DNA of 64,000 bases, taken from positions 3,286,001 to 3,350,000 of the forward strand of contig NZ_AP025592.1 in NCBI RefSeq assembly GCF_023169965.1, written 5' to 3'. The position numbers and the translations under genes are program-made. Origin of the DNA: Anaeromyxobacter paludicola. GTDB lineage: Bacteria > Myxococcota > Myxococcia > Myxococcales > Anaeromyxobacteraceae. The notes below the pieces were generated by a model, which saw only the letters and a program-made list of their open reading frames with translations, did not search any database and had not been told where the DNA came from. Position 1 is the first letter of the stretch. The number at the start of each line of letters is the position of its first letter. This document shows, one piece after another, positions 7,013-8,841 of the stretch.

Positions 7013-8551
7013 TCAGTCGAGGTCGAAGGCGAACCGCTCGGCGGCGTAGCCGCGCTGGACGAGCAGCACGATCCGGCCGCTGCGGCGGGCCTTGCCGGCC
7101 TGGCGGCGGAACTCGGCCAGGCTCGTCACCTCGCGCGAGTTGACCTCGCGGACGAGGTCGCCCGGCTCGAGCCCCTCGCGCGCCGCCGGCGAGCCGCGGT
7201 GCACCGACCGGATCACGAGGACCCGCGCGCGGGTCTCGGCGAGGTCCAGCCCGACGCGGCGGGCCACGAGCTGCTCCACCCGCTCCGGCGAGAGGTCCAC
7301 CGCCTTCACCGGCACCGCCACCCGGCCGCCGGCGCGCTGCACCTCGAGCCGCGCCGTCTCGCCGATGGCGAGGTCGCGGACGCGGAAGCGGTACTCCTCG
7401 GCGCTCTCGAGCGGCTGCCCGTCCACCGACTCGATGACGTCGCCGCGCCGCAGCCCGGCCGAGGCGGCGGGCGAGCCCGGCTCGACCGCGGCCACCACCA
7501 CGCCGCGCGCGCTCCGGCCGCCCTCCTTCTTCTTCAGGTCCTGCACGTCGAGGCCGAGGTAGCCCTCGCGCACCTCGCCGTGGCGGATGAGGTCCTCGGC
7601 CACGCGCCGCGCCCGGTCGATGGGGATGGCGAAGCCGATGCCGGCGTTCCGGTCGCCCAGGATGGCGGTGTTGATGCCGATGAGCTGCCCGTCGATGTTG
7701 AGGAGCGGGCCGCCCGAGTTGCCGGGGTTGATGGAGGCGTCGGTCTGGACGAAGTCGAAGAGGGTCCGGTCGCCGGCCTTGAAGTTGCGGTGCACGGCCG
7801 AGACCACGCCGGTGGTGACGGTGTGCGAGAGGCCGAACGGGTTGCCGATGGCGATCACCGTCTCGCCGATGAGGAGGTCGTCGGAGCGGCCCGGCGCCAC
7901 GAAGGGCATGCGCTCCTGCGCCTCGAGCTTGAGCACCGCGAGGTCGCTCGACGGATCGGTCCCGACCACCTTGGCGGTGAGCTCGCGCCCGTCGAGGAGG
8001 CCGACGCGGAAGCGGGCGCCGCGCTCCACCACGTGGTTGTTGGTGAGGACGTACCCCTCCGGCGAGACGATGACGCCGGAGCCGAGCGAGGTGACCTGGT
8101 AGCCCTTGCGGTAGCGCGGGCGCTCGAACAGGTCGCCGAAGAGCAGGTCGGCCACGTCGCCGCCCTGCCGCTGCGAGGGCACGCGGATCCGGACCAGCTC
8201 CTCGGCGGAGACGTTCACCACCGCCGCCCGCACCTTCTCCACCGCCGCCACCACGGGGGTGCGGCGGTTCGAGCTGGGGCGGCTCTCGGCGCTGGGGAGC
8301 GCGCCGCCCCCGGCGGCCCGCGCGGGCCAGGCGGCGGGGGCGGTCAGCGCGGCGAGCAGGAGGATCGCGGCGTGGAGAGCCGGTGAAGAAATCCCCTCCC
8401 GTCGCCGCGGCGAACGATCCGCATCGCATCGCTGCGTTGCTTCTCCCTCACATACCTTGCAGGTATGCTCGGTCGTCGCGCCTTGCGCTGCTCGCGTCTC
8501 GCTCGCCTGGCTCGGTCCGGGGATTACCTCACAGGCTCTGCGACGACGCAC
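7013..8551 (-). CDS. HtrA/DegQ-type serine protease with two PDZ domains; 5' end uncertain
   Basis: Periplasmic trypsin-like protease/chaperone of the DegP/DegQ/HtrA family. The catalytic triad is visible as LTNNHVVE (His), SSDLAVLK (Asp) and NPGNSGGPL (Ser). Two PDZ domains follow, the first starting near GYLGLDVQD and the second near RVLVIRSVHRGSPAA with RSGRIVLLVQRG at the end. The only ATG/GTG/TTG start ahead of the signal-peptide-like segment (ISSPALHAAILLLAAL) is GTG 8551, which adds 53 residues that are entirely encoded by a palindromic intergenic element (8401-8548). The natural start may instead be a rare codon such as ATT 8392 just before the hydrophobic segment. The upstream small gene ends 4 bp before GTG 8551. 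Confidence 0.9.
   Translation of the reverse strand: MRRRRACEVIPGPSQASETRAAQGATTEHTCKVCEGEATQRCDADRSPRRREGISSPALHAAILLLAALTAPAAWPARAAGGGALPSAESRPSSNRRTPVVAAVEKVRAAVVNVSAEELVRIRVPSQRQGGDVADLLFGDLFERPRYRKGYQVTSLGSGVIVSPEGYVLTNNHVVERGARFRVGLLDGRELTAKVVGTDPSSDLAVLKLEAQERMPFVAPGRSDDLLIGETVIAIGNPFGLSHTVTTGVVSAVHRNFKAGDRTLFDFVQTDASINPGNSGGPLLNIDGQLIGINTAILGDRNAGIGFAIPIDRARRVAEDLIRHGEVREGYLGLDVQDLKKKEGGRSARGVVVAAVEPGSPAASAGLRRGDVIESVDGQPLESAEEYRFRVRDLAIGETARLEVQRAGGRVAVPVKAVDLSPERVEQLVARRVGLDLAETRARVLVIRSVHRGSPAAREGLEPGDLVREVNSREVTSLAEFRRQAGKARRSGRIVLLVQRGYAAERFAFDLD
8401..8548. repeat. Palindromic intergenic element at the htrA 5' end
   Basis: At its centre is a perfect palindrome with 7-bp arms, CATACCT-TGC-AGGTATG (8451-8467). 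It is flanked by GCTGCGTTGCTTCTCCCTCA on the left and CTCGGTCGTCGCGCCTTGCG on the right. I recall very similar blocks (inverted GTACC/GGTAC core, AACGCAGC on one side, GCAAGGCG...CCGACCGAG on the other) scattered in intergenic regions of other deltaproteobacteria. Composition is unlike that of the flanking genes. The outer boundaries are approximate. Confidence 0.6.
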
Positions 8552-8555
8552 GGCG

Positions 8556-8765
8556 CTACGCCTCGGGACCCTCGGCGGCAGGCGACTCCTCCTCCTCGTC
8601 GTCGAAGTCGTCGAGGTCCATCGCGGCCTCGACCGGGACGGCCTGATCGGCGAGGTCGGGCAGCTTCTTCAGGAGCTGCTCGTAGTCCTTCTCGTCCACG
8701 ACGCCCTTCTTGATGTAGCGGGCGACCACGCGCTTGTCGACGAGCTTGTTCTCGTATTCGGCCAT
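8556..8765 (-). CDS. Small protein with acidic C-terminus, 69 aa
   Basis: Begins MAEYENKLVDKRVVARYIKKG, with RBS-like GGAAGAA upstream of ATG 8765. It has a helical N-terminal half followed by an Asp/Glu-rich tail (LDDFDDEEEE). There is no signal peptide or cysteine. It is upstream of htrA on the same strand, 4 bp before the possible htrA GTG. I do not recognise the family. The layout suggests a cytoplasmic regulator or adaptor, but this is a guess. Confidence 0.72.
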   Translation of the reverse strand: MAEYENKLVDKRVVARYIKKGVVDEKDYEQLLKKLPDLADQAVPVEAAMDLDDFDDEEEESPAAEGPEA

Positions 8766-8841
8766 TTCTTCCTCTTGGGGGGAGGCCCGGAAAATAGGCG
8801 GGCGCTTGCGACCCCGTCAAGTGCGTGCTACCGCAACGTAC

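Follow-up and report, generated by a model that had tools for sequence, protein, structure and literature searches.

The htrA gene in the 64-kb stretch of Anaeromyxobacter paludicola DNA analysed here (referred to as the window) raises the question of how a gene for a conserved protease can carry a long hairpin sequence within its first codons. The gene (7013..8551, minus strand; 512 codons including the insertion) encodes a trypsin-like domain and two PDZ domains according to Pfam and starts with a GTG codon (8549..8551, minus strand). A conserved gene of 69 amino acids lies directly upstream (8556..8765, minus strand), and its stop ends 4 nt before GTG 8551; its product has an acidic tail, and its best Pfam match is a sub-threshold Phage_XkdX. 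The order in this genome is the upstream stop, the GTG 4 nt further on, the codons for VRR, the hairpin element, and then LHAAILLLAALTAPAAWPARA, the displaced remainder of the predicted signal peptide (21 codons, 8315..8377, minus strand; end set by eye). The element follows htrA codon 3 and thereby separates the basic beginning of this signal peptide from its hydrophobic core.

The initial annotation had noticed a perfect CATACCT/AGGTATG core in this region and had offered two options: either an element had inserted between the ribosome-binding site and the gene, which now starts at a rare codon, or it had become coding. The core is located at 8451-8467, as part of a larger unit with 21-nt arms that forms a full hairpin. 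We also find, as stated there, that the htrA frame has no stop throughout the element and that GTG 8551 is the only start upstream of the signal peptide, being the first ATG, GTG or TTG in frame; the next is GTG 8254, within the mature part. The pre-sequence had been given as 53 residues and in fact comprises 58 residues before LHAAILLL, of which 55 are contributed by the insertion.

The palindrome CATACCT-TGC-AGGTATG (8451..8467) is the only match in the window with up to two mismatches, compared with a mean of 0.01 in shuffled sequence, and its stem shows paired changes among copies. Two terminal arms, 8376-8396 and 8519-8539, are 86% complementary across 21 nt, and the fold of 8390-8555 beats 200 of 200 shuffles (z = -5.5). 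In full, the unit extends from AGAGCC at 8539 (minus strand) to GGCTCT at 8376 and folds into one end-to-end hairpin with CATACCT/AGGTATG at its tip. Window positions 8376-8539 hold a complete MITE copy, 162 bp from GAGCC to GGCTC (8377..8538, minus strand, its core in the same orientation as htrA), with 21-nt terminal inverted repeats (TIRs): AGAGCCTGTGAGGTAATCCCC at the 5′ end (8519..8539, minus strand) and GGGGATTTCTTCACCGGCTCT at the 3′ end (8376..8396, minus strand). Between them lies a hairpin core conserved throughout the phylum (8397..8518, minus strand). R1, a covariance model of this 121-nt core, matches it with 130.8 bits (E 7.8e-25), this copy being itself among the 39 sequences from which R1 was built; the next best R1 match has an E value of 3.6, in a specificity control confined to the window.

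The assignment as a MITE is based on several features. The TIRs of two sister copies in the same genome (L002 and L003) pair even better than those of the htrA copy, and both sisters are flanked by TCA on either side. The corresponding triplets at htrA are degenerate: GCA on the left (8539..8541, minus strand) and TCC on the right (8374..8376, minus strand), each one substitution away from TCA; as they are not identical, they count against a clean duplication. The element is small and multi-copy and lacks a transposase. With 162 bp, 21-nt inverted repeats and a target duplication, it is not a REP sequence, which is described as a small palindrome of 20-40 bp (PMC3733652). A known Rfam RNA family was likewise ruled out: 12 element sources gave no match to Rfam covariance models at E≤0.5, and the one match within window positions 8200-8800 is far under the cut-off (10.8 vs 191 bits, E 0.83).

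The initial annotation had likened the flanks to a repeat of other deltaproteobacteria and had named a lack of further copies as refuting; copies do occur, both in this genome and in related delta-type bacteria. The genome of the window (G000; 4.59 Mb, one contig) contains five copies that are 100, 95, 93, 91 and 88% identical to the htrA copy; a sixth match at E≤0.001 is weaker and partial, and R1 likewise finds five. Ten of the 24 genomes of the family, G000 included, show matches at E≤0.001, with 37 places in the related genome G001, where the end pattern is matched 48 times in each orientation. Exact matches to the core among named genomes amount to seven stretches, all of them from Anaeromyxobacter (Myxococcota). 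A search of the order that started from a G001 copy gave matches at E≤1e-6 in 24 of 145 genomes, and R1 at E≤1e-4 recognized 40 of 195 genomes of the phylum in 12 families, model-building genomes included. Copy counts from these searches are lower bounds, five candidates per genome having been scored at the order level and 18 with R1. No match was obtained in phages and plasmids at E 1e-5. Terminal-repeat pairs of about 48 bp with no room for a core were observed around position 1501 of L153 in G000 and at G001:C1:91826-91873, the latter seen only as pattern positions.

The position of the original start was judged from 22 orthologous htrA loci (L060-L081), in 21 of which the small upstream gene precedes htrA, the other locus being cut by a contig end. 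An in-frame ATG or GTG lies from -1 to +17 nt of the end of the upstream stop in 19 of these 21 orthologues, and in the same 19 the most hydrophobic 11 residues start by residue 11. The exceptions, G001 and G002 (L064 and L065), have GTT or GTC where GTG is expected; two GTG codons are found there within the small gene, some 30 nt further upstream. An extension derived from the element is lacking in all 21 judged orthologues, which rules out that it represents a conserved domain. Judged by the orthologue starts, GTG 8551 lies upstream of the site where the element inserted and not, as the first option of the initial annotation had it, downstream of an element that separates the gene from its ribosome-binding site. 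A rare start codon is not needed either, because the element lies downstream of a start shared with the orthologues. The second option, that the element has become coding, was the better one: an in-frame insertion has divided the signal peptide.

Removal of the element and one triplet yields VRRLHAAILLLAALTAPAAWPARA, which is as long as the orthologue from a genome of the same genus (G012). With the two sides rejoined, the empty site becomes VRRLHAAILLLAAL, to which VPRTGAAIFLLAAL of the same length corresponds in G012. At the DNA level, the reconstructed site is GTG CGT CGT CTC CAC GCC GCG ATC and that of G012 GTG CCA CGC ACC GGC GCC GCG ATC, so the intervening bases differ while the length is the same. 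This comparison within the genus refers to one genome, which is 80% complete and contains no full copy of the element (a 46-nt partial match, none with R1), and the htrA insertion is known from one strain of the species. The two orthologues are 90% identical.

Taken from the genome sequences, the element with its boundaries and copies, the shared start, the open frame and the element-free orthologue of matching length point to the insertion of a 162-bp non-autonomous element of this hairpin family into codon 4 of htrA, a reading to which we assign a probability of about 0.85. The Myxococcota-wide element would have duplicated a TCA-like triplet on insertion, and 162 bp plus the 3-bp target duplication amount to 165 bp or 55 in-frame codons. 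As 165 is a multiple of three and the element contains no stop in this frame, htrA is still a single reading frame. Translation most likely still begins at GTG 8551 by coupling to the stop codon of the small upstream gene, and ribosomes arriving from that gene would restart there and traverse the hairpin sequence. The predicted product is an HtrA in which the 58-residue pre-sequence precedes a hydrophobic core that is itself intact. With DRSPRRREGISSPA encoded at the end of the insertion, the element itself would contribute new basic residues (RSPRRR) immediately ahead of this core; since positive charges precede it again, export may persist. The locus appears to be a clear case of a mobile hairpin in a conserved, probably exported protease, and since an element-free orthologue exists in the genus, the consequences for start selection and export are directly testable.

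The foot of the hairpin lies 9 nt past the start codon, and a hairpin so near to it could impede initiation. The element might block the message or cause it to be cut, for example by RNase III acting on the hairpin, and HtrA would then be made from an internal start: either a non-standard one near the right TIR, such as ATT 8391 behind GGGAGGGG, or GTG 8254 or a later codon, without a signal peptide. The hairpin is indeed very stable, a purine-rich stretch precedes ATT 8391, and RNase III action has been proposed for hairpin MITEs of Neisseria (PMC2229807). However, the purine run adjoins the ATT with almost zero spacing, no in-frame ATG, GTG or TTG occurs between 8551 and 8254, and the frame from GTG 8551 is intact, so that no rescue is necessary; we regard an internal start as very improbable. 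The insertion could also have abolished export and left htrA to decay, its function being covered by two other HtrA paralogues. G000 does contain two more HtrA-like genes, and among the judged orthologues the insertion is present only in this one. Decay is nonetheless unlikely in view of the full-length frame, the Pfam protease and PDZ domains and the identity to the G012 orthologue; the htrA copy of the element differs from its sisters without having acquired a stop in frame, although this test has low power.

A further alternative is that selection has retained the 55 residues as a new segment, such as part of a regulated or longer signal peptide. The basic stretch provided immediately ahead of the hydrophobic core would fit this, and of the four G000 copies of the same type only that in htrA has the frame-keeping length of 164 nt, the others measuring 163, 161 and 163 nt. 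Three copies in G004 are also 164 nt long, though, so this length may be ancestral, and the insertion is restricted to one genome. Of 61 element copies scored, 54 have no stop in frame 0; the openness is thus mostly inherited rather than earned, and together with a one-in-three chance of a length divisible by three, it means that the intact frame is no proof of selection. We therefore consider such an exaptation quite unlikely and favor the simple in-frame insertion into codon 4.

Insertion within a gene is not typical of the family: of the five G000 copies, only that in htrA was found inside one. Three of the five share their triplet with the TGA stop of a Pfam-matched neighbor (PmbA/TldD domain, response regulator, cation efflux), and the less well-bounded copy L005 abuts the stop of an NHL-repeat open reading frame. 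In G001, the right flanks of 29 of the 37 places were considered, after exclusion of five abutting the transposon described below, two abutting another element and one fragment. Twenty-five flanks could be parsed: 22 contain a frame of at least 60 codons ending with TGA at the triplet and three a short one (other frames are often open too). Pfam matches at E≤0.001 were obtained for 18 of the 21 long frames scanned (L345 was left out), 17 of them above the Pfam cut-off. Similarly, seven of nine scanned frames next to copies from G004, G007 and the TGA-type copies of G006 and G009 match Pfam (11 frames, L031 and L042 left out). For copies flanked by CTAG or TTAA, six of nine scanned frames, ending in TAG or TAA, are above the Pfam cut-off, these nine having been picked from 14 for a long frame ending at the flank. 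L275 and L276 show no long frame at the flank and speak against a general stop-codon rule.

Most scorable copies are hence located at a neighbor's stop codon, the target duplication rebuilding TGA, TAG or TAA according to element type. The loci behind this observation are L002, L003, L004 and L005 in G000, L317-L345 in G001, and L272, L274, L279, L280, L282 and L286. As a control, we inspected CTCAG/CTGAG sites in the window, that is, in G000 and not G001 DNA, with a rough gene caller (47 genes): 12 are at stop codons, 14 in coding sequence and three between genes. With 12 of the 15 non-coding sites being stop codons, active stop-codon recognition is not needed, as the target sequence itself marks gene ends in this GC-rich DNA. 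Siting of this kind, with a stop that the duplication restores, may account for the limited damage caused by most copies. The copy in htrA departs from it and is perhaps tolerated because the frame is kept.

A candidate for the mobilizing enzyme comes from G001, which harbors 10 TCA-bounded copies, one internally deleted, of a transposon assigned to the IS1182 family (2e-110; 370 bits vs a cut-off of 270). Its ends, GGGACCGTGAAGTAATCC and GAGAGCGTGAAGGAATC, adjoin TCA and resemble GAGCCTGTGAGGGAATCC of the element, for which exact TCA on both sides at a fixed offset is present in 24 of 36 G001 copies. Transposon and element thus have TCA flanks and similar terminal bases in common but differ in their interior, where the transposon resembles the MITE core only weakly and locally: the best local match is 70% over 74 nt within the transposase gene (E 0.006); another, of 19 nt, is located near the left end (E 0.02). 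In five of the 10 copies (L199-L203), a MITE abuts the left end of the transposon in the same orientation while the outer flanks differ, which suggests that both can move as a pair, judging from their arrangement; repeated independent insertion of the MITE beside the transposon is the alternative. One of these loci, L201, has a MITE at both transposon ends. The element in htrA may have been mobilized by a transposase of the IS1182 type; searches of G000 for these transposases found no homologue of the G001 enzyme at E≤1e-15 and no PF01609 match at E≤1e-6. A second parent transposon with a CTAG target was sought in G087, G093 and G138. Five contig ends of G093 carry a core-less element with the same end, its interior lost to assembly, and among seven PF01609 loci from G087, G093, G138 and G165, three short matches to the motif were seen, none flanked by CTAG.

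In-frame MITE fusions are already known from Rickettsia palindromic elements (RPEs), Yersinia RU-2 and Coxiella QMITE2 (PMC10969869, PMC2229807, PMC5896051), and the htrA event adds a further instance. RPEs are hairpin MITEs of about 105-150 bp that are open in frame and lie inside protein genes (PMC10969869, PMC2229807). In this they are like the htrA element, which also interrupts a conserved protein gene in frame while the orthologues lack the insertion. Differences from the RPEs, to which it is likened by description only, are the host and the location of most scored copies at stop codons. In the Yersinia YPAL/RU-2 fusion YPO1552, a MITE contributes to a predicted signal peptide (PMC2229807); there it belongs to the signal peptide of a putative new protein, whereas the MITE in htrA splits the n-region from the h-region in the gene of a conserved protease. 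The Chunjie MITE of Geobacter uraniireducens (235 bp, 37 additional copies, conserved ends; PMC10969869) is likewise from a delta-type bacterium and, compared by its description, differs in length (178-235 vs 162 bp). Our literature search, in which subscription journals were thinly represented and ISfinder entries not covered, revealed no paper on this element family. PMC3129680 reports a manual ISfinder annotation of four Anaeromyxobacter genomes, so ISfinder may already contain an entry for the element or its transposon.

The newer aspect is a family of hairpins of about 160 bp with a conserved core and changing ends across a bacterial phylum. The terminal repeats vary with lineage: GAGCCTGTGAGGGAATCC in G000 and similarly in G004, GAGCGCGTGAATCCATCC in G001 and G007, GAGGTCGTGAATCAATCC in G006 and G009, AGGGTTGTTCAGAATGCC in G006, TTAACACTGCTGCGTCATATCCC in G091, and AGAGCGCCGATCAGGTTGGC with CTAG flanks in G087 and similarly in G093. 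Depending on element type, the flanks resemble TCA/TGA, CTAG or TTAA. When 34 distant copies were folded, most formed one long hairpin with paired ends; L295 did not, and L232 was branched.

Conservation of pairing was evaluated in alignment A1 (26 sequences, retaining rows with damaged ends such as L037, L055 and L125). Alignment A2 and model R1 use 39 of 46 trimmed sequences, seven being omitted by choice; since the apex is poorly aligned in A2, covariation is claimed from A1 only. Here, 95.0% of the cells pair compared with 85.3% after shuffling, and 136 cells have changed on both sides and yet pair, against a shuffled mean of 52 (reached in 0 of 500). The covariation score is 0.289, compared with 0.127 for shuffles (0 of 500) and no more than 0.083 for slid controls. 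Two-sided change at 21 of 55 pairs is modestly above the shuffles (mean 16.4, reached in 1 of 500). The changes occur mostly at the tip and in the terminal arms, while the middle hardly varies. Because related sequences can beat shuffles without any structure, and because the structure was derived from the same sequences, we take these values as support, not proof; copying between the two arms could also yield paired changes.

The paired changes, together with TIRs that differ between lineages and even between neighbors, allow the tentative proposal that the 121-nt core is a functional passenger, acting as a DNA hairpin or as RNA. MITEs with different transposases may carry it across the Myxococcota, the ends being exchanged and the structure kept by selection, and the htrA copy would then be a passenger turned into a protein segment. 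We regard this as possible, though somewhat doubtful: a single transposase partner was found, and joint gradual drift of element and transposase could take the place of end exchange. The neighbors in question are the two adjacent elements of L282 in G093, which have related cores and different terminal repeats and share one CTAG. Within the core, columns 70-78 and 98-106 of A1 form a near-invariant middle stem with three successive internal loops of GA opposite GA; in G038 (L230), a perfect stem replaces all three.
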